DNA of 64,000 nt, taken from positions 127,001 through 191,000 of the forward strand of contig JASIRB010000588.1 of the NCBI GenBank assembly GCA_030323885.1. Direction: 5' to 3'. The DNA is from Branchipolynoe longqiensis. Its lineage: Eukaryota > Annelida > Polychaeta > Phyllodocida > Polynoidae. Both the position numbers and the translations under genes were made by a program. Numbering within the stretch: position 1 is the first letter of the stretch; each line of letters starts with the position of its first letter. Under the pieces are notes generated by a model. That model worked only from the letters and a program-made list of their open reading frames with translations, did no database searches and was not told the origin of the DNA. This document shows positions 169-47,530 of the stretch, piece by piece.

Positions 169-631
169 GGGCGTAATCGATTAATCGACTCTGGTCACGC
201 GAGCCACTTTTTGGCGCATGCGCACATCCTGCAGACTCGGGTCGAATAATCGAATAAGCTTCTCCATGCTCGGGTGACAAAAATGGTGGCCCTTTTATTT
301 GTTTTTTTAGTAGCCGATATAATTACAGCAAAATATGATTGAACTATTTTTATGATGGCATAGTTTAGTGATATTTCCATTTCATTAATCTATGTTATCA
401 CCAAAAAAAAATATGTATGACTGGTACTGGTGGCTGTTATCCTGCAGGATGGTACCAGCGCAAATGTGACGTCATCACTCCTTGCAAACCCCAGCCAAGA
501 GGTGGGTTACTGGGGTCGGGTTGTTTTGCACACAGCACGTGTATTTGTCGACTCCACTCGTGGTGTTCTATTTGAAATTCTGACGACTCGGATGACCCGA
601 GTCGCCCGGGTCGTGTTAATCGATTACGGCC
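169..631. mobile_element. Foldback MITE, family GGGCGTAATCG, copy 1
   Basis: The left end gggcgtaatcgattaatcg is mirrored at the right end by gttaatcgattacggcc. A second copy lies at 38872-39829. This copy is important because its segment at 534-546 is the empty version of the site where a terminal-repeat element is inserted in the other copy. Confidence 0.65.
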
Positions 632-1487: not shown

Positions 1488-1843
1488 TAAAGCTGCATAG
1501 TCCGATGAAATATCAAATTTTCAAAACCAAACCAATTATCTAGATTTGATTTTACATATCTAACTTAGATACTGATGCACTTATTAAGTATTTGTTTCTG
1601 CGTAGAAGGCAATACTGAATCAATTTAACAGAACATGTTACTGCAGAAGTCTATGGTGTCAGAGTTTTGGCAAGCTTGCCAAATCTAATTTTCCATGTTT
1701 ACACTCAAAATATCTCAAAAGTTTACCATTTAAAATAAAAGTAACTTTGAACTAATGTAAAGTAGATACTACTGATCGATCTAACATATTTATCTCAGGA
1801 AAAAAAACCAGAAATTCAAAACCATCGGACTATGCAACTTTAA
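1488..1843 (+). mobile_element. TTAA-family MITE, near full length
   Basis: The left end taaagctgcatagtccgatg is the inverse of the right end catcggactatgcaacttta. Internal blocks are shared with over twenty copies in the window. The termini begin with purines after TTAA. No coding capacity is visible. Confidence 0.8.
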
Positions 1844-2327
1844 ACTCACCCGAGCATGTCAGTGGTGTGTGGTGGGGTTTATGTAAGGTAGTCCCTGCCT
1901 AACTCCCATGAAATGCTACACTCTTTAACCTTGACTTATCACTGGTTAGTGCGTATGGCACCATAACACCGAGCGGGTCCTTGGGATTTGAGGGCTTACC
2001 GAGGAATCTTCGGCAGCAGGGAGATAGATAGATGGCTTTCTATAGGCGGAGGTGAAGTCAAATAGTTCTAATATTGCTAAAGTAACTAAACGGATATATA
2101 TACACACATATATTCAATAAACGGGGGATATAAATGGCAAATGTTGACAATCAAGTCCACCAGACAGGATGACCCACTTCCTCAGATTTTTGCTCTAAAT
2201 CTGGGAACATTGACACTGACCGTCCGCAGCTTCCTTCCTGCTCGTTGACAGCATAATATTATATGTCCTACATATACATATAAGTGCATATATATATATA
2301 TGTGAAGTGGGCGTGTCTACTCGCCTG

Positions 2328-2353
2328 AGCAATTTGCGCGTGCGCAAATTGCT
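2328..2353. repeat. Perfect 12-bp-arm hairpin
   Basis: The arms AGCAATTTGCGC and GCGCAAATTGCT are exact inverse complements with a two-base centre. Confidence 0.85.
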
Positions 2354-2389
2354 AACACTTGTGCACGCGAGGGTTCTCGGTGGTAAAGC

Positions 2390-2414
2390 GTTGCTTAGCG
2401 ACTAGCTAAGCAAC
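2390..2414. repeat. Perfect 10-bp-arm hairpin
   Basis: The arms GTTGCTTAGC and GCTAAGCAAC are exact inverse complements around the loop GACTA, about 40 bp from another perfect hairpin. Confidence 0.85.
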
Positions 2415-3232
2415 GATAGGGGGTCGGGCGTTCGGGGCCAGACCCGGCGGACGTGTTTCTACACGCTCCGTCGTTTTCCACCGATATTTAGGCTTTTTAG
2501 GGTCAAAATTCTAAACTAAATTATAGAAACCACACGGGAGGGAACGGGAGACCTTTATCACTATTTATGTTGGTATCCATGTTAGTCTTTGGTTAAGAAT
2601 AAACCGTGAGCTCTTGTGAAGGTGAATCAGGACGTTCCTTGCATTCTTTACTATCCTCCAGTCTTATTGTAGATTAACCGCTATGGAACCTTGATATTCG
2701 ATTGCTTTCTATGAACTGAGAGGCCTTAAGCCTAAGTCGGCCTTCTGCAAGTAATGCACCCCTCTGCGGGAATCTAATAACTGACGCATTTACAGAATTA
2801 ACGTAGTGTTACTTTTAGGCTAGAACCACGACGTATAATGCAAACTAAATAGTAGAGACCGCGGCAGCAACTCGTGCTGGACTGCGCATATTTGGATTCA
2901 GTTAGTAACATTCATAATATCTCCAACGACGAAGGGGGCAGCCAGTAGTTGAAATAACCTAATATAAATACACTTTAGGCCGATAAATGCGCACGATGGC
3001 AAATCTAGTATTTAGACGATACTCTGGCTGGCGCCTTCAGTCCGGGGCGGACACCGACGACGGACAATGCGCAGGCGGGAGGTAAGGCTACAACGGCGGC
3101 GGCTGGCCCAAGGAAATTCACATGGAAACAATTAATTATATTAACACGTAAGCTCGCCTTAGGCGGGGGCGGAAAAGCTGTACGGTTAAATATGCATATA
3201 TATGCATATGTATGTATTATGTATATTTATAT

Positions 3233-3489
3233 ATATAGAAGGGCATACTGAGTCGATTTAATCAAAAACCTGTTACTGCATAAGCATATGGAGTATGGTG
3301 TCAGATTTTTGGCGTGCTTTCCTAAATTAATTTTGCTTGTTTGCACTTCAAATATCTCAAAGGTTTGCCATTCAAAATAAAAGTTATTTGAAATTAAAGT
3401 AAGGTAGATTATAATTTTAATAGTCAAATTAATATATTTATCTCAGAAAAATGATAGTAACTCAAAACCATCAGACTATGCAACTATAA
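3233..3489 (+). mobile_element. TTAA-family MITE, 5' part missing
   Basis: It starts at the internal block agaagggcatactgagtcg and runs to the right terminus accatcagactatgcaact. Confidence 0.7.
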
Positions 3490-3612
3490 GTATGTTAGGA
3501 ATACTATATCATTTATATGTATATAATTTATCCCACAAAATGTATTAAAATTATGTTTGAATGTTTTTGTCCTTAAAATGTGAGGATCTATAGTTTGAGT
3601 TGTCGATGGTTT

Positions 3613-7625: not shown

Positions 7626-8153
7626 TCATATACATGTACATATATATATATGTTGCATAATGCATTATACGAAACTACATAGGGAGATTGCGTATGACTT
7701 ATTTATTATTGCCATTATGGTTCGAATATAACGTGACTATACTTAGCGAGGGGCAGCTCCGAACTAACTACAGAACTGTACGTGCGGTGGCGCCACCTGT
7801 GGCTTTAATCCGAACTACATGATGCGTGACTTTGCTTAACAGTAAATGCCATAGTTAGAAAATCGTTTAGAATTTGACAAAATAAATCTTCGCCGTGTAA
7901 TTTATAAAGGAGGCTATTTGGAGTGCAATTAAACATTAAACATTAATCAAAACAAACAACATTTTGTGGGAATGACAATGTGCCACTGTTAAACCCATCT
8001 CTTGGGAAACTGCGCCAGGTATTGCCACCTTGACTGGTAATTGTTAGTAAATATTGCCACCTCGTCTGGTAATTGTTAGTAATAGGTCCATTGAACTATA
8101 TGCGCCAACTTGGGTTCAGGCGAGTGTTGTGTCTTATGGTTGTTGGAGGATAT
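7626..8153. other. No recognised feature
   Basis: An AT microsatellite lies near 7635. The words gcattatacgaa resemble the repeat at 58038 and 60790. A short direct duplication of tattgccaccttgactggt/tattgccacctcgtctggt lies near 8020-8070. Confidence 0.4.
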
Positions 8154-8486
8154 GGTTGGTTAGTTGTTGGAGTTTTACATCCTGGCAACATCTAAGGTCA
8201 TATCAGGATTTGCACCGACTTGTGACAGTGCACAGTCATGGAAATTTAACAGTGCTGCCCCACTGGGAAACCAGGCCACCAGCACCATGATCTGATATCC
8301 GACTAAATCACATTATCCTGACACTGAGTTAACCAGTCCTTGCCCTATCCTATTAATGCCAAGCGTCAAGCTAGGAAGCAACAAGTATCAATTTTGAAAG
8401 TCATCGGTTTGAATCCACCAGGAATTGAACTCCCGGTCTCCCGCACGGAAGACGTGCGCTCTACCGATTCGGCCACCGCGCCCGGT
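8154..8486 (-). mobile_element. SINE-1 copy, full length
   Basis: It runs from the tail ggttggttagttgttggag to the head end ggccaccgcgcccggt. Confidence 0.85.
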
Positions 8487-8987
8487 TGCAAGATATGGAG
8501 GAATGTGGGTGATGGGCGAGGGAGGGAGGGAGGGGGGGGGGGGGGGCTTGGAATGTTGGGAGGGTCATTTCTAATATTGCAAAGATGAAGAAGGGGCTGG
8601 CTGAAAATGGGTTAACTATCTATTGCAGTCTGCAACTACAGTTGCAGGAATACAAGAACCCAAGAACCCAAGAACCCAAGAATAAAGAGTTCATGATTAG
8701 CATCTGGGGGAGAGTCCGCCTAAGTTTCACTGGACAACATCTTGGTGGCAAAAGTAAAGTAGAAAGATTCGCAGCAGTGCAATAAATAATCCGTTCAGCA
8801 GCAAGCAGTTCATACATCTATATATTTTTTTAAACTGCCACTGACGGTATGGGTCATAAAGCGAAGGGTTGCCATGGTTACCGGCTGATGGATGGAGGCT
8901 GGTATGATGGGGGTACAAAGGGGATGACACCAGCCATAACATGATCCCCAGTGCCCCATCCCACGGGCTGTGGAAGTCCCCCAACTA
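8487..8987. other. Unassigned, with poly-G tract
   Basis: A G-run lies at about 8531-8547, a small aagaacccaagaaccc tandem at 8655-8682, and otherwise nothing I can name. Confidence 0.45.
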
Positions 8988-9264
8988 ATGCTAGGTACAC
9001 ACCTACCATATACGATCGTTTTTCCGCACCCACCTACCGTATACCATCTAAAACTGCCCAAAAGTCGTGAGGTGTGCACTCCCCTAGCACACCTACCGAT
9101 TGCGATTCACGACTAAAAACTCATTTTTAGGGCTAAAACGGTAGGTGTGTACTAGCATTACGATTGCGATTCGCGATTCGAAAAATGAATCGGCCCATTT
9201 TCAGTTTTAAGCGGGTCGGGAGTTTTAGTGCGCAAATCCTATACGGTAGGTGTGTACTTGGCAT
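8988..9264. mobile_element. Foldback MITE, TGCTAGGTACACACCTACC family, copy 1
   Basis: The left end ctaggtacacacctacc mirrors the right end ggtaggtgtgtacttggca. Interior words gattgcgattcgcgattcg are shared with the copy at 10650-10930. Confidence 0.75.
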
Positions 9265-15880: not shown

Positions 15881-16377
15881 ATACCTGAGCTCCTGCCATG
15901 CCGGGTCCTCGCTTGCTCTCCGGTGGGTTTTTCCCCTGTACCACCCACCCCAATGGGCCCCCCTCCCCTGCCACCACCCTTAACCATCATGAACAAACCA
16001 TTAACACACTGAACATCCTACACAACTATCAATCTGTTTAAACACATTGAACATTATATAAGACAGACAAAATATCTTGTCAACTCTGAACTTAACTTGT
16101 TTTATAAGAGAAAAAATGTAACCCACAACAATTATTTGAGTTGCCCCCGAGTATACACCTTCTACTCGGTGCTGCTCCTCATTTTTGCATGAACTACAGT
16201 GACTGGTTGCTGTACATTATACAGCAGGAGCCACTCCCTTAATTCTACAGGATCGGTGCTGTGACTAATACAGCACTGATTAAACTTAGATTATTGAGAC
16301 TGTCAATTCTAATAGTAAGATGGCCGGAAGACCAGTGCCCCGGCACTGACAAATGTCATGTTCAGATGAATAAATAC
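15881..16377. other. No recognised gene
   Basis: A C/T-rich stretch lies at 15940-15990. An inverted pair near 16195-16290 (gctgtacattatacagcag; ctgtgactaatacagcac) is weak. Confidence 0.4.
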
Positions 16378-16880
16378 TGTCGTGGGGGTGATGAAAATGG
16401 GAAATACTGCGCCTAGAGCGGGACTCGAACCCACATCTCTTTGCATTCCGGGCCAGTGTGCTAACCATTACACCACCTAGGCTCCCTGATATCAATACAC
16501 TCCCCATGCCTACCTGTCTATGTGGTTACTTGCCTGAGAGGTCAGTGCAGACCACCACACTCGTCCCCCTGGAATTGTAAGTCTTGTAATGCTTACAATT
16601 ACATACATACAGGCAATGCACTAACACATACATACACAGGGTAGGTTCAACAACCATACAGCGCAAAGCTTGTACAGGATCCTGATCACGGCAACCAGTG
16701 TCGTGGGGGTGATGAAAATGGGAAATAATGCGCCTAGAGCGGGACTCGAACCCACATCTCTTTGCATTCCGGGCCAGTGTGCTAACCATTACACCACCTA
16801 GGCTCCCTGATATCAATACACTCCCCACGCCTACCTGTCTATGTGGTTACTTGCCTGAGAGGTCAGTGCAGACCACCACA
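16378..16880 (-). mobile_element. 503-bp TRIM-like element with tRNA-like terminal repeats, copy 1
   Basis: Two 182-bp direct repeats (16378-16559 and 16699-16880) flank 139 bp of unique sequence. In sense orientation each repeat starts TG and ends CA. The element is flanked by ATAC on both sides. Directly inside the first repeat is c-tggttgccgtg, a plausible tRNA primer site. Directly before the second is the purine-rich aggggga-cgag. Each repeat contains a 72-nt tRNA-like sequence (16411-16482, 16732-16803) with B box ggttcgagtcc. The two repeats differ at only about two positions. It closely matches the copy at 39233-39735. No coding capacity is seen, so mobilisation would depend on another element. 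Confidence 0.75.
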
Positions 16881-16903
16881 ATACTTTACCCCCAAAAAAC
16901 AAA

Positions 16904-25127: not shown

Positions 25128-26250
25128 ATCTAGCCCTCCCAACGCGCCACCCCAACACCAACCCAGCACCACTAGAGCATCACCCCAGCACTGCTACAGC
25201 ACCACTACAGCGCCACCCCAACATCACTACAGCACCACCCCAACACCACTACAGCAATACCCCTGCACCACCCCATCACCACCCCTGCACCACCCCAGCA
25301 CCACTACAGCACCACTACAGCACAACCCCAACACCACTACCACACCACCCCAACACCACTACAGCAATACCCCTGCACCACCCATCACCACCACTGCACC
25401 ACCCATCACCACCCTAGCACCAACCCAGCCGCACCCTTGCACCACCCCAGCATCACTACAGCATCACCTCAGCACTGTCCAGTACCACTTCAGCACCACC
25501 CCAACACCACTACAGCAATACCCCTGCACCACCCATCACCACCCTTGCAGACCCAGCACCACCCCATCACCACCACCTGCCCCACCCCTGCACCACCCCA
25601 GCACCACTACAGCACTACTACAGCACCACTACAGCACCACCCCAACACCACCTCAGCACCACCCCAACACCACTACAGCAATACCCCTGCACCACCCATC
25701 ACCACCCTTGCAGACCCAGCACCACCCCATCACCACCACCTGCCCCACCCCTGCACCACCCCAGCACCACTACAGCACTACTACAGCACCATCACAGCAC
25801 CACCCCAACACCACCTCAGCACCACACCAACACCACAACAGGAATACCCCTGCAACACCAATCACCACCCCTGCACCACCCAGCATCATCCCTGTACCTC
25901 CCAGCACCACTACAACACCACCACAGCACCACTACAGCACCACCCACCACTACAGCACCACTACAGCACCACCCCATCACCACCACCTGCCCCACCCCTG
26001 CACCACCCCAGCACCACTACAGCACTACTACAGCACTACTACAGCACCACTACAGCACCACCCCAACACCACCTCAGCACCACACCAACACCACTACAGC
26101 AATACCCCTGCACCACCCAGCATCATCCCTGTACCACCCAGCACCACTACAACACCACCCCAGCACCACTTCAACACCACCCACCACTACAGCACCACTA
26201 CAGCATCACCCCAGCACCACCCTGCACCACTCCGGTAACACCCCAGCAAA
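25128..26250. repeat. 1.1-kb CAC-rich degenerate minisatellite
   Basis: Units such as cagcaccactacag and caccccaacaccac repeat throughout, with higher-order blocks of 100-300 bp (gcaatacccctgcaccacc recurs). The strand is almost free of G. Open frames of His, Pro and Thr across it are by-products of composition. Confidence 0.85.
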
Positions 26251-26622: not shown

Positions 26623-27404
26623 CCCTGGGCCCGTATGCACCAATCGGGGATAGGCTTAGCCAGAGGTAAGGCTCTAGCCACGGATAGCTACCTCAGGGTA
26701 GCGGGGGGTTTGAGAAAGGTGTGAATCGGTATGCACCAATGTTTTAGCCGCTGCGGATAGCTAACCGTGAATTTATTTATAGATTTGGGAATTCCCTCCA
26801 GTCGACAATATGTTTACTTTACACTCTTCGATTCGAAAATATTAATATCGCTGCCGTTACGGCATCAGCGTTAATCTCGCTTCGATGTTAGGGTTAATTT
26901 AATGAAATTTCATGATTTGAGTACGTAATTCTGTTAAATATGATCGCATTGAATAGTTATAGGCATAATATATTTGCGGCGATTCGGCAGTGACGGCGGC
27001 GGCCATGTTTAGTTGACGTTGGACAGTATGGATATTGATGTCGCTGCGGCGGCGGCGATTTGTTTACTTTACGTTCGTCGATTCGAAAATATTAATATCG
27101 CCGCCGTTACGGCATCAGCGTTAATCTCGCTTCGATTTTAGGGTTAATTTAATGAAATTTCACGATTTGCGTATGTAATTCTGTTAAATACGATCGCATT
27201 GAATAGATTGAGACCCACACACGCACACTAACAGCACCGGCAAGCAGTTAAACCTGACTTCAAGTCAGGGTAGCTTAGCCGAGGCTACGGTCGGCGGTTA
27301 GCCCTAACTCCGATTGGTGCATACCAAATTTTCACATTTAGCCCTGTGGGGATACCTTAACCGTGGTTAAGGCCCTAACCCCGATTGGTGCATACAGGCC
27401 CAGG
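26623..27404. mobile_element. Foldback element, CCTGGGCCCGTATGCACC family
   Basis: The left end cctgggcccgtatgcacc mirrors the right end ggtgcatacaggcccagg. Inside, a block of about 145 bp occurs at 26809-26953 and again at 27061-27204 with few changes. Confidence 0.7.
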
Positions 27405-27407
27405 GGG

Positions 27408-27583
27408 TGATGAAAATGGGAAATATTGCAACTAGAGTAGGAATCGAACCCACATCTCTCGCATTCCGGGCCAGTGTGCTAACCATTACACCACATAGAC
27501 TCCCTTATGTCACCACCCTATCCACACCTACCGGTCTATGTGGCTCCATGCCTCAGATGTCAGTGCAGGCTACTGCACTCGTC
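27408..27583 (-). mobile_element. Partial, diverged copy of the tRNA-bearing terminal repeat
   Basis: Most of one terminal repeat is present with the tRNA-like segment, plus gacgag from the adjoining purine tract at its sense 5' side. The sense 3' tip is cut by the neighbouring foldback element. Confidence 0.65.
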
Positions 27584-31827: not shown

Positions 31828-32460
31828 AGGTTTTCTTTTACTTGTGCGTGTATCGGGATGCGTTTGTAAAATTTAAACAATAAACCTTTTCTTTGACTTG
31901 TGCGTGTATCGGGACACGTTTGTAAAATTTAAACAATAAACCTTTTCTTTGACTTGTGCGTGTATCGGGACACGTTTGTAAAATTCAACCAATAAACCTT
32001 TTTTTTTTAATGTATGGGTGTATCAGGACACATTTGTAAAATTGAACCAATAAACCTTTTCTTTTACTTGTGCGTGTATCAGGACGCATTTGTAAAATTG
32101 AACCAATAAACCTTTTCTTTCACCTGTGGATGTATCAGGACGCATTTGTAAAATTGAACCAATAAACCTTTTTTTTCACCTGTGCGTGTATCAGGACGTA
32201 TTTGTAAAATTGAACCAATAAACCTTTTCTTTTACTTGTGCGTGTATCAGGACGCATTTGTAAAATTGAACCAATAAACCTTTTCTTTCACCTCTGCATG
32301 TATCAGGACGCATTTGTAAAATTGAAGCAATAAACCTTTTCTTTTACTTGCGCGTGTATCGGGACATGTTTGTAAAATTGAACCAATAAACCTTTTCTTT
32401 TACCTGTGCGTGTATCGGGATGCATTTGGTTTGTAAAATTGAACCAATAAACCTTTTCCA
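31828..32460. repeat. 56-bp minisatellite, about 11 copies
   Basis: The unit contains cttgtgcgtgtatcgggac, then gtttgtaaaattgaaccaat and aaaccttttctttta. The first spacings are exactly 56 bp. Adjacent units share variants (aaacaat early, gaaccaat later), showing stepwise expansion. Confidence 0.9.
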
Positions 32461-38871: not shown

Positions 38872-39829
38872 GGGCGTAATCGATTAATCAACTCGGGTCA
38901 CCCGAGCCACTTTTTGGCGCATGCGCACATCCTACAGACTCAGGTCAAATAATCGAATACGCTTCTCCGTGCTTGGGTGGACATTTTGTTGTTGTTGTTA
39001 ATAACCGATAAAACTACAGCAAAATAGGATTCAAAGTATTTTATGATGGCCTAGTTTAGCTATATTTCCATTTCATTAATCTAAGTTATTCTTTAAAAAA
39101 AACATGTATGACTGGTACTGGGGGCTGCTATCCTGCAGGATGGTACCAGCGCAAATGTGACGTCGTCGCTCGTAGCCAACCCCAGCTAGGAGATCGGTTA
39201 CTTGGGTCGGATCGTTTTGCACACGGCACGTGTGTAGTGGTCTGCACTGACCTCTCAGGCAAGTAACCACATAGACAGGTAGGCGTGGGGAGTGTGTTAA
39301 TATCAGGGAGCCTAGGTGGTGTAATGGTTAGCACACTGGCCCGGAATGCAAAGAGATGTGGGTTCGAGTCCCGCTCTAGGCGCAGTATTTCCCATTTTCA
39401 TCACCCCCACGACACTGGTTGCCGTGATCAGGATCCTGTACAAGCTTTGCGCTGTATGGTTGTTGAACCTACCCTGTGTATGTATGTGTTAGTGCATTGC
39501 CTGTGTGTATGTAATTGTAAGCATTACAAGACTTACAATTCCAGGGGGACGAGTGTAGTGGTCTGCACTGACCTCTCAGGCAAGTAACCACATAGACAGG
39601 TAGGCGTGGGGAGTGTGTTAATATCAGGGAGCCTAGGTGGTGTAATGGTTAGCACACTGGCCCGGAATGCAAAGAGATGTGGGTTCGAGTCCCGCTCTAG
39701 GCGCAGTATTTCCCATTTTCATCACCCCCAAGACACGTGTATTTGTCGACTCTACTCGCAGTGTTCGATTTGAAATTCTGACGACTCGGGTGACCCGAGT
39801 CACTCGGGTCGTGTTAATCGATTACGGCC
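38872..39829. mobile_element. Foldback MITE GGGCGTAATCG, copy 2, carrying an insertion
   Basis: The ends match 169-631. The interior is split at 39233-39735 by the TRIM-like element. Removing it and one CGTG gives the same join as copy 1. Confidence 0.75.
39233..39735 (+). mobile_element. 503-bp TRIM-like element with tRNA-like terminal repeats, copy 2
   Basis: Direct repeats at 39233-39414 and 39554-39735 are each 182 bp, start TGTAGTGG, end in ACA and differ at one position. CGTG at 39229-39232 and 39736-39739 is the target duplication, confirmed by the empty site at 534-546. Inside are c-tggttgccgtg (39415 onward, primer-site-like) and agggggacgag (39543-39553, polypurine-like). Each repeat holds a 72-nt tRNA-like segment (39310-39381 and 39631-39702): acceptor ends gcctagg and tctaggc pair, D-arm gtgtaatggttagcac and T-arm gtgggttcgagtcccgc fold, but the anticodon stem does not. 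The 139-bp interior has no coding potential. Confidence 0.8.
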
Positions 39830-39899: not shown

Positions 39900-40647
39900 T
39901 TTGTTTGTTTGTTGTTGTTTTGCGTCCTAGCAACATCTAAGGTCATATCAGGACGGGTACCGACTTGTGAAAGTGTGCACTCATGGCAACTTCATAGTGC
40001 TGCCCCACTGGGAAATCAGGACGCCGTCACCATGATCTGATATCCCACACAGTCACCTTATCCTGATACTGTGCTAACCAGTTCTTGTCTTATCCTAATA
40101 ATGCTGAGCCCCAGGCTAAGTAACGACTAGATAAAAGATTCACCCCATACTTGCAGTACATGGGTGAAAACCAATCCATTAGAAAAACTGGCAAAGAATT
40201 TGGACATGGTGGGGAGATGAATTGAGCAGATAAATTCATAATTTAAGAAGCAAAATATATTCTCCACATACATATTCATGTTTACCCGCTACTTCTGATA
40301 TGAAATATATAATAAAATATGTAGTTTAAGGAACTTTAAAAATAAAGCCGATGGCGTCATCTTGTCTTTGTGCATTCTCGCTCAGTTCACCAACTCTGTG
40401 CCAGTATAACTAGCGATTTGATTCTGGAACCAGGGGTTCCAGTTCCGGTTCCATACTAAAGCAGTTTTCGCCTGTATTTAGTCTATGTTATGGTTCACCC
40501 CTGTACTATAAGTACGTGGTGAATCTTTTATCTAAGTAGCGACACGTATCAATTTTGTAATTCATTGGTTTGACTCGACTGGGATTCGAACTCCCAATCT
40601 TTCGCATGGGAAGCCTGCGCTCTACCGACTTGGTCACCACGTCCGGT
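39900..40647 (-). mobile_element. SINE-1 copy interrupted by a hAT-like MITE
   Basis: The SINE runs 39900-40127 and resumes at 40536-40647 with head end ggtcaccacgtccggt. Confidence 0.85.
40128..40535. mobile_element. hAT-like MITE, copy 2, inside SINE-1
   Basis: The ends tagataaaagattcaccc and gtggtgaatcttttatcta are inverse complements. GTAACGAC (40120-40127) and GTAGCGAC (40536-40543) form an 8-bp target duplication with one change. Confidence 0.85.
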
Positions 40648-44215: not shown

Positions 44216-45411
44216 CATCATCATCATCATGCTGTCGGTCGCGATGCGACAAAGACTGCTTTCATTACTTGACTGCCGCTCTCCATTTAGCTCTCTGCTG
44301 TGAGAGTTGTGTCCATGAGTCGGTCTTAATGTCTCTCAGCTTCAGGTTTCTCTTGATGGTATCTTTGAACCGGAGACGGGGGCGCCCTCTCTTTCTGTAG
44401 CCAAAAGACAGTTGAGAATAGAGGATCTGCTTTGGTAGCCTGTCTGATGACATCCTCATGAGGTGTCCAGTCCACCGGAGATTCTTTTTGATCAGAAGAT
44501 CTTCCATAGAGGGCAGCCCCATCCGTTCGAGTATTTCCTTATTCGTCACTTTGTCCTTCCAGGTTAGCCTCATGACTGAACGCAGATGTCGCATCATGAA
44601 GGCATGCAGCTTTTTCACCTGCTGTCTGTACGCTGTCCAGGCCTCGGCTCCGTATAGTAGGGTGGATAGCACGATTGCGCGGTAGATCTTACCTTTGACC
44701 CGAATGGACACATGGTGGTTGTTCCAGAGTCTCTGGCGTAGTCGGGCCGAAAGATGCGCTAGCCTTGGACATCCTCCTCTGTATCTCAGCATCAATGCGT
44801 CCATCACTTGATATTGTGCATCCGAGATAGGTGAATTCCGGAACAGAGTTCAGCTTGTTTCCGTCAACCATGATCTCCTCCTCTCGGGTTCTTGTAGAGT
44901 TGGGTTGGTACAGCACCTCCGTCTTCTTGATGTTAATTTTCAGGCCAAACTTCTTTGATGCATCGGAGAAAGCGTCCACTATTTTCTGGGTCTCTTCAGC
45001 AGAGTGGGCAACCAGTGCACTGTCATCTGCGAATAGTAGCTCTCTCACCAGTATCTGAGTAGTCTTGGTCTTCGCTCTGAAGTGTGCGACATTGAATAGG
45101 TCAGCGCTCTGTCTGGACTGTATATAGATGCCATCCCCCATGTCTCGGAAAGCCTCGTCTAGCATTGCTGATAGGAAGATGGAGAAGAGCGTGGGGGCCA
45201 GTGCACAAACTTGCTTGACCCCATTGGTAACCGCAAACGATTCCGAGACTTCCCCTCCAGCACTAACGTTCGCCATCATTCCTGTATGTAGAGCCTCGAT
45301 CATAGTTGTGAACTTCTCTGGGCATCCGTACTTCCTCAGTAGCTGCCATAGCCCGGTCCTCCCGACTGTATCAAATGCCTTAGTGAAATCGACAATTACA
45401 TACAAATGCGT
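44216..45411 (-). mobile_element. LINE with reverse transcriptase, 5'-truncated and frameshifted
   Basis: The minus-strand frame from 45411 starts inside the RT: VDFTKAFDTV is motif A, GVKQVCALAPTLFSIFLSAM is motif B (a Val replaces the usual Gly), and LLFADDSALVAHS is motif C with the catalytic FADD. It then continues to TYLGCTISSDGRID. Near 44740-44770 the frame shifts, and the rest (LLYGAEAW, then TNKEILERMGLPS, GRPRLRFKD) continues to a stop just before 44262. A CAT/ATG run closes the 3' end. It is non-functional. The clade (RTE-like or a relative) is not certain. The 3' tail matches 24485-24590. Confidence 0.85.
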
Positions 45412-45536
45412 ATACAATAAACCCTCTCTAAATCGATCGATCTTGGGACCGACTTTAAGTGGTCCATTTAGGGAGGTGGTCGGTTTAGGGGGGAGTGGTC
45501 GATCTGTGGAGGTGGTCGGTTAGAGAGGTTTTACTG
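45412..45536. mobile_element. Short pogo-like MITE, CAGTAAAACC type
   Basis: aataaaccctctctaaatcg at the left and agagaggttttactg at the right are inverse complements, with ggtggtcggtt words inside. It abuts the truncated LINE end. Confidence 0.65.
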
Positions 45537-46843: not shown

Positions 46844-47102
46844 GGAATTGCTGGTGAAGCTGCCGTGTGAAGGTGATGAATGAATGTATGTGGGATGCGG
46901 ATGCAGGGGGGGGGGGGGTAGTGGAAGGTTGATTGCGGCGTTTCTGGGGCGATACCCCTCACCTGGCCCGAGTCGGATGGAGGTTAGAGAGCGCGGGGGG
47001 CGGGCAGAGCATGGGAGGGAGGAGGGGGCGAGGGAGCAGGAGCATGGGCGGGGCGAGCATGGGGCGGGGGGGGGGGGGAGATGGGGCGAGGGGAACGGGG
47101 AG

Positions 47103-47530
47103 CCGGGGAGCATCGCGCAGGGGGGGGGCATGGGCGGGGGAAGTAAGGGCGGGGGGAACATGGGCGGGGGAGGTAAGGGCGGGGGGAACACGGGCGGGGG
47201 AGGTAAGGGCGGGGGGAGCATGGGCGGGGGAGGTAGGGGCGGGGGGAGCAGGGGCGGGGGAAGTAAGGGCGGGGGGAACACGGGCAGGGGAAGTAAGGGC
47301 GGGGGGAACACGGGCAGGGGAAGTAAGGGCGGGGGGAACATGGGCGGGGGAAGTAAGGGCGGGGGGCATCATGGGCGGGGGAAGTGAGGGCGGGGGGAAC
47401 ATGGGCAGGGGAAGTAAGGGCGGGGGGGACATGGGCAGGGGAAGTAAGGGCGGGGGGGGGGAACATGGGCGGGGGAAGTAAGGGCGGGGGGAGCATGGGC
47501 GGGGGAGGTAGGGGCGGGGGGAGCAGGGGT
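47103..47530. repeat. 30-bp G-rich minisatellite, about 14 copies
   Basis: The unit combines agtaagggcgggggg and aacatgggcggggga. Runs of four to nine G occur in every unit, so the strand could form G-quadruplexes. Long Gly/Arg and Pro open frames on the two strands are by-products. G-runs also lead in from 46907. Confidence 0.9.

Follow-up and report, generated by a model that had tools for sequence, protein, structure and literature searches.

Helenus elements, described by Kojima (2024, PMC10886601), are TRIMs whose LTRs each contain tRNA-derived sequence with an A and a B box, together with a primer binding site (PBS), a polypurine tract and, in animals, 4-bp target duplications and primer sites similar to those of Gypsy. 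According to that description, they are known from fungi, a plant and six animal phyla, the hosts given being Ctenophora, Chordata, Mollusca (Bivalvia, Pteriomorphia), Brachiopoda, Nemertea, Arthropoda, some fungi and Selaginella; an annelid host, or a mollusc outside Pteriomorphia, would fall outside this published list (PMC10886601). The same source lists tRNA-His as one of the primers used by families of bivalves and vertebrates, reports tandem arrays in one fish family and solo LTRs in others, does not predict a working tRNA for most families, and presents RNA polymerase III (Pol III) activity as not experimentally validated. Helenus-type elements are also mentioned in a 2026 meeting report.

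Further systems are comparable with the element described below. The plant TRIM Cassandra resembles it in having a small-RNA promoter in each LTR and, as in the model proposed here, transcription from the 5' LTR to the 3' LTR with short terminal repeats; however, Cassandra carries 5S rRNA instead of tRNA sequence, belongs to plants, and is reported to produce Pol III transcripts, whereas here the promoter is predicted (Cassandra data as given in PMC10886601). biv-TRIM, found in bivalves, is likewise an animal TRIM; it forms tandem arrays whose units share their terminal repeats, occurs also as solo repeats and has inverted repeats inside, all of which recur here, but its tRNA similarity is given for the inner domain and not for the terminal repeats, and it is described as having no unambiguous primer site, in contrast to the clear tRNA-His site of our element (PMC6934838). 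TRIMp3 is a Pol III-driven TRIM; for the element studied here Pol III transcription is predicted, and the indirect tests for excess conservation of the tRNA-like part were negative (see below).

The window, i.e. the whole stretch of 64,000 nucleotides of Branchipolynoe longqiensis DNA that was analysed, contains two copies (A and B, Table 1) of a 503-bp element composed of a 182-bp LTR, a 139-bp interior and a second 182-bp LTR. In both of them the LTRs start with TG and end with CA, TGG begins one base past the first LTR, and AGGGGGACGAG abuts the second. The two LTRs differ at one position in copy A and at two in copy B, the interiors of the copies differ from each other at one position, and each copy is enclosed by an exact 4-bp duplication, CGTG for copy A and GTAT (ATAC on the plus strand) for copy B. 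No ORF of at least 110 aa overlaps either copy, and the interior, including its 9-bp inverted repeat, folds no better than shuffled sequences (z -0.20). Identical layout, both target duplications and the small number of repeat differences had all been part of the original prediction, and each of them agrees with what we observed.

Table 1. Positions of the element copies, their parts and related sequences in the window
Feature	Positions	Strand	Remark
Related repeat with the empty site of copy A	169..631	+	
Second target duplication of copy B	16374..16377	.	ATAC on +
Copy B	16378-16880	-	
Copy B 3' LTR	16378..16559	-	
tRNA-like sequence, copy B 3' LTR	16410..16482	-	
Copy B internal region	16560..16698	-	139 bp
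Copy B 5' LTR	16699..16880	-	
tRNA-like sequence, copy B 5' LTR	16731..16803	-	
Target duplication of copy B	16881..16884	.	ATAC on +
Older decayed relative	27403..27583	-	GACGAG and 3' LTR without last 6 bp
Target duplication, left of copy A	39229..39232	.	CGTG
Copy A	39233-39735	+	
Copy A 5' LTR	39233..39414	+	182 bp, TG...CA
tRNA-like sequence, copy A 5' LTR	39310..39382	+	Rfam RF00005, 47.1 bits
A-box-like TGGTGTAATGG	39317..39327	+	read from sequence
B-box-like GGTTCGAGTCC	39361..39371	+	read from sequence
TTTT, candidate Pol III terminator	39395..39398	+	sole T4 of the LTR
Copy A internal region	39415..39553	+	139 bp
Primer binding site TGGTTGCCGTGATCAGGAT, copy A	39416..39434	+	variant of host tRNA-His complement
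Inverted repeat AATTGTAAG...CTTACAATT, left arm	39513..39521	+	9 bp; read from sequence
Inverted repeat, right arm, copy A interior	39532..39540	+	read from sequence
Polypurine tract AGGGGGACGAG, copy A	39543..39553	+	
Copy A 3' LTR	39554..39735	+	
tRNA-like sequence, copy A 3' LTR	39631..39703	+	
Target duplication, right of copy A	39736..39739	.	CGTG

The element combines the TRIM form, tRNA-derived LTR sequence with A and B boxes, a PBS, a polypurine tract and 4-bp duplications, i.e. the set of features that defines Helenus, and it is further similar to individual Helenus families in its tRNA-His primer site, in the occurrence of both tandem arrays and solo LTRs and in a tRNA-like part that resembles those not expected to yield a working tRNA. 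We are confident that it is a Helenus-type TRIM, that is, a non-autonomous, protein-less LTR retrotransposon, and we assume that it represents a new Helenus family, the comparison with published families being one of described anatomy. The original view of a recently active terminal-repeat element is upheld by the LTRs, the primer site, the polypurine tract and the duplicated target sites. In contrast, the proposal that an animal TRIM with tRNA-like sequence inside the LTR would be a new type of element is rejected, since such TRIMs were already described in 2024 as Helenus (PMC10886601).

The insertion of copy A can be followed at the sequence level. When its flanks were joined, they aligned without a break to a related repeat in the same window (463 columns, 84.9% identity, 12 gaps), so the predicted empty site at about 534-546 is real. 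A more distant match (74%) at another genome locus (L045) also crosses the joined junction. Chance does not explain the layout, the duplications and the empty site.

A third related sequence, absent from the original prediction, was found in the window. This older relative is 85% identical to the element, is also called as a tRNA (Rfam, 37.7 bits), and still has GACGAG, the end of the polypurine tract, in front of its TG; because this end is kept, it resembles an LTR remnant.

The host assembly (1.85 Gb, 1914 contigs) was searched for further copies. The query with the complete element gave 1576 loose candidates, 40 of which were scored, yielding 47 matches, some overlapping within arrays; 45 of these span all 503 bases at 96-100% identity. 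As copy B is missing from this scored list, the list is a lower bound. With the interior as the query there were 842 candidates, and 29 of the 40 scored were identical over all 139 bases. Seven systematically placed 10-kb stretches (L044-L050) contained no relative at E 1e-4. The genome copies are mostly the best-scoring ones and not a random sample, therefore arrays and low divergence are probably over-represented among them.

In the window and loci L001-L060 we distinguished 46 complete chains: 32 with two LTRs, ten with three, two with four, and two solo LTRs. The genome thus holds single elements, tandem arrays sharing repeats and a few solo repeats, which is the count that the original prediction had called for. 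An exact 4-bp duplication encloses 39 of the 46 chains and is missing from seven (present in 28/32 two-LTR, 8/10 three-LTR, 2/2 four-LTR and 1/2 solo forms), so the TG/CA borders and duplications, whose failure in other copies had been named as refuting evidence, hold in the copies examined. The duplicated sequence is NTAN in 24 of the 39 cases and NATN in ten, some being TATA within TA-rich flanks and hence weak evidence. LTR pairs differ on average at 1.72 positions per 182 bp (29 pairs of equal length, three pairs with indels excluded), and a 16-mer ending in AGGGGGACGAG is exact in 46 of 58 copies.

A query for older relatives gave 2957 candidates, of which 40 were scored. Among ten older loci from this scored set, six retain the LTR-internal-LTR order and two consist of interior and 3' LTR, with only the last 41 bp of the interior kept in one case and a degenerate 5' part in one; of the remaining two, one is a 5' LTR with an interior that reaches the end of the stretch and one is a lone LTR.

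The TGG-starting segment one base after the first repeat, previously described as primer-site-like, matches a variant of the host tRNA-His complement: TGGTTGCCGTGATCAGGAT differs from TGGTGCCGTGACCAGGAT by an inserted T and a single C-to-T change. The host tRNAs used for this comparison are nine tRNA-His-like loci taken from 36 genome matches; ARAGORN identifies eight of them as tRNA-His, and in eight of the nine TGGTGCCGTGACCAGGAT is the beginning of the complement of the 3' end, CCA included. PBS and tRNA-His agree over exactly 18 nt and no further, which is the length that tRNA primer sites usually have. Among 61 internal copies, the exact 18-nt complement occurs in six, two of which (L073 and L075) came from a PBS-pattern search, and the window variant in 34. 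The sequence therefore supports tRNA-His as the probable primer of reverse transcription.

When interiors at least 97% like those of the window are considered, the exact 18 nt are found in four, the variant in 53 and other forms in four. The four young exact-PBS interiors have no common mark outside the site, and the substitution G91A is present in two of them versus 20 of the 53 of the variant type. Such ungrouped copies are to be expected if the primer tRNA is copied into the PBS, and we consider it likely that the tRNA primer has been recopied into the element. A different explanation, retention of an older allele or gene conversion, is also plausible, if somewhat less probable in our estimate: an intermediate PBS (with the extra T and the original C) is found in two of 61 young interiors, and the exact site also occurs in old copies, so the exact form may be ancestral. 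On the other hand, under this explanation one would have to account for the lack of any linked variant outside the site in the four young copies, which lie on both G91 and A91 backgrounds.

Another candidate for a primer footprint was abandoned. A pattern made from the human tRNA-His 18-mer had a single genome match, in the Helenus copy L081; as the host tRNA-His agrees with the human 18-mer over 12 nt only, this reading was dropped.

A much older relative was noticed in locus L035 (2117-2330), 71% identical over LTR positions 70-178 and followed by TGGTGCTGTGACCAGGAT, which differs by one base from the tRNA-His complement usual in the host and agrees fully with that of one tRNA-His copy (L089). 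It may possibly represent an additional, older lineage of Helenus within this genome.

All four LTRs of copies A and B reach 47.1 bits with the Rfam tRNA model (RF00005), for which the gathering cut-off is 29 bits. ARAGORN likewise reports a tRNA in all four, with the type tRNA-Ser deduced from the anticodon GGA. Serine tRNAs typically have a long variable arm, and since the tRNA-like part has none, this label is of little meaning. In the Rfam alignment of the 5' LTR of copy A, pairing is seen throughout the acceptor, D and T stems and is broken at two of the five pairs of the anticodon stem, exactly the good arms and defective anticodon stem that had been predicted. Plain tRNA genes were considered and rejected, since the LTRs, despite their tRNA scores, have a defective anticodon stem. 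The tRNA-like part is identical to the nine tRNA-His-like host sequences at 43 to 46 of 73 positions and was thus not copied recently from the primer tRNA; it folds little better than shuffled sequences (z -1.29).

The A-box consensus is TRGYNNARNNG and that of the B box GGTTCGANTCC; together, the boxes found in the LTR suggest a working Pol III promoter. In 72 young LTRs the A box TGGTGTAATGG is present in 71, the B box GGTTCGANTCC in 68 and the TTTT (T4) in 71. Each LTR has one T4, 12 bp past the end of the tRNA-like part, and the element is otherwise free of both TTTT and AAAA.

Based on these features, we propose the following cycle. Pol III would initiate close to the tRNA-like stretch in the 5' LTR, using the A and B boxes, pass the T4 of this LTR and end at that of the 3' LTR, so that the transcript would be roughly 410 nt long; the approximately 90 nt of tRNA-like sequence at both its ends could then act as R in the first strand transfer. 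Host tRNA-His, bound one base past the 5' LTR, would prime reverse transcription and the tract AGGGGGACGAG the second strand, both steps being supported by the sequence of the respective sites. Integration produces the 4-bp duplications, mostly at NTAN sites, as the insertions themselves show. The helper is likely an autonomous Gypsy, given the 4-bp duplications together with the Gypsy-like primer sites of animal Helenus (PMC10886601).

The duplications of the present family fit mobilisation by Gypsy, and the suggested check for an autonomous LTR element sharing the repeat ends was carried out with a pattern search, which gave 44 genome matches versus one in a reversed control. Four of the matched loci were examined: two (L073 and L075) are old Helenus copies, one (L074) is weakly related and one (L072) is ambiguous, and no such autonomous element was found among these four of 44. 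A Pfam scan of 10 of the 18 ORFs in these loci and L081 gave no match at E 0.01.

The main competing view of transcription is that the TRIM is transcribed by Pol II like ordinary TRIMs, with the tRNA-like stretch as a passenger from an old SINE or tRNA insertion. Several observations speak for it. The expectation that the tRNA-like part would be conserved better than the rest did not hold in either of two sets. In the 72 young LTRs the tRNA-like part has 0.0120 variants per site, against 0.0117 upstream of it and 0.0234 on its downstream side, i.e. there is no excess conservation. For 12 older loci (one LTR each) windows were compared with 182 circular shifts: the A-box window (0.970 vs 0.927 elsewhere) was equalled or exceeded by 36 of the shifts, the B box (0.902) by 150, the T4 by 109 and the entire tRNA-like part by 84. 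As both tests were negative, these data do not demonstrate that a Pol III promoter is under selection. Moreover, pairing in the anticodon stem is already disrupted, Pol III would have to read through the T4 in the 5' LTR, which counts against the Pol III mechanism, and Helenus Pol III activity is presented without experimental validation (Kojima 2024, PMC10886601). Against the passenger view stand the two boxes and the T4, each of which is preserved in 18 of the 21 LTRs in a mixed collection of older ones that includes the reference, as well as the single T4 at a short distance behind the tRNA-like part. Weighing both sides, we think Pol II transcription unlikely, at perhaps a minority chance worth keeping in mind, and prefer the Pol III-driven cycle.

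The multi-LTR forms raise a separate problem. Arrays of the type LTR-(internal-LTR)n sit inside one 4-bp duplication, which means that they either grow after insertion or are inserted whole, unequal recombination and array transposition both being possible. It is conceivable, although in our opinion doubtful, that the arrays are themselves mobile units: Pol III would pass weak T4s, and RNAs with at least three LTRs would be reverse transcribed, with tRNA-His recopied, and inserted as a whole. Thirteen arrays were compared, 11 with three LTRs, one with four and one that is open. In one of them (L014) the outer LTRs are identical, the middle LTR has five differences, the interiors are 14 differences apart and there is one GTAT duplication; identical outer LTRs would be expected if both were remade in one reverse-transcription event. 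This combination of identical outer and divergent middle LTRs was seen in L014 only among the 13 arrays. The outer LTRs are the closest pair in four of the 11 three-LTR arrays (L005, L014, L022 and L056), about the chance level, which argues against mobility of whole arrays. L014 and L041 each contain one modern and one older interior.

One array, in L042, has at least six complete LTRs, with a seventh cut off, and runs into an N stretch. In the same locus, positions 1501-3584 and 7856-8999 share the same left flank, 6.4 kb apart, the second lying before a four-LTR array; the two arrays differ in length, are separated by the N stretch and may be alleles of a single array that the assembly has joined.

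A SINE is a unit without LTR borders, and the idea that a tRNA-derived SINE or a tandem tRNA-like repeat was mistaken for an LTR element, which might be invited by the presence of a tRNA-like unit, by its abundance and by the tandem arrangement, is practically untenable and is refuted for the copies examined by the fixed TG/CA ends, the 4-bp duplications around whole chains and the empty site, as well as by the PBS that matches host tRNA-His, the conserved polypurine-tract 16-mer and the tract end kept by the decayed relative.

As a young, abundant and well-bounded family, this Helenus-type TRIM is suitable for testing whether the tRNA-like LTR part of Helenus drives Pol III transcription, and also for finding which autonomous element moves Helenus. 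Since ARAGORN and Rfam call its LTRs tRNA genes, a family this large could inflate tRNA counts.

The window contains several other features. One of its ORFs gave no relative in a similarity search. Remains of a reverse transcriptase, which we take to be LINE-type, lie at 44265-45519 on the minus strand (Pfam RVT_1, E 2.4e-18 for 44689-45519); the sole named relative of the latter segment among the 120 matches listed is from the tubeworm Ridgeia piscesae (89% over 60%). An HSP70 exon matches unnamed proteins at 78-79% and, among named ones, those of Lineidae (78%), Owenia (76%) and Littorina (75%), while its four best-scoring and longer matches are from Schistosoma (two), Toxocara and Mytilus at 69-73%; COX1 was looked for in the assembly and not found. 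By these comparisons the host is probably lophotrochozoan, with an annelid slightly favoured. A dispersed repeat of about 220 bp occupies 39901-40135 and at least roughly 25-30 other sites in the window, or about one per 2-3 kb, the copies being mostly 70-88% identical, and is also present in several genome loci. Long minisatellite-like arrays at 25147-26248 and 46993-47529, in which several frames are open over hundreds of codons, are probably not genes. Finally, a 56-bp tandem repeat is located at 31831-32458 (11 copies, 89% matches).
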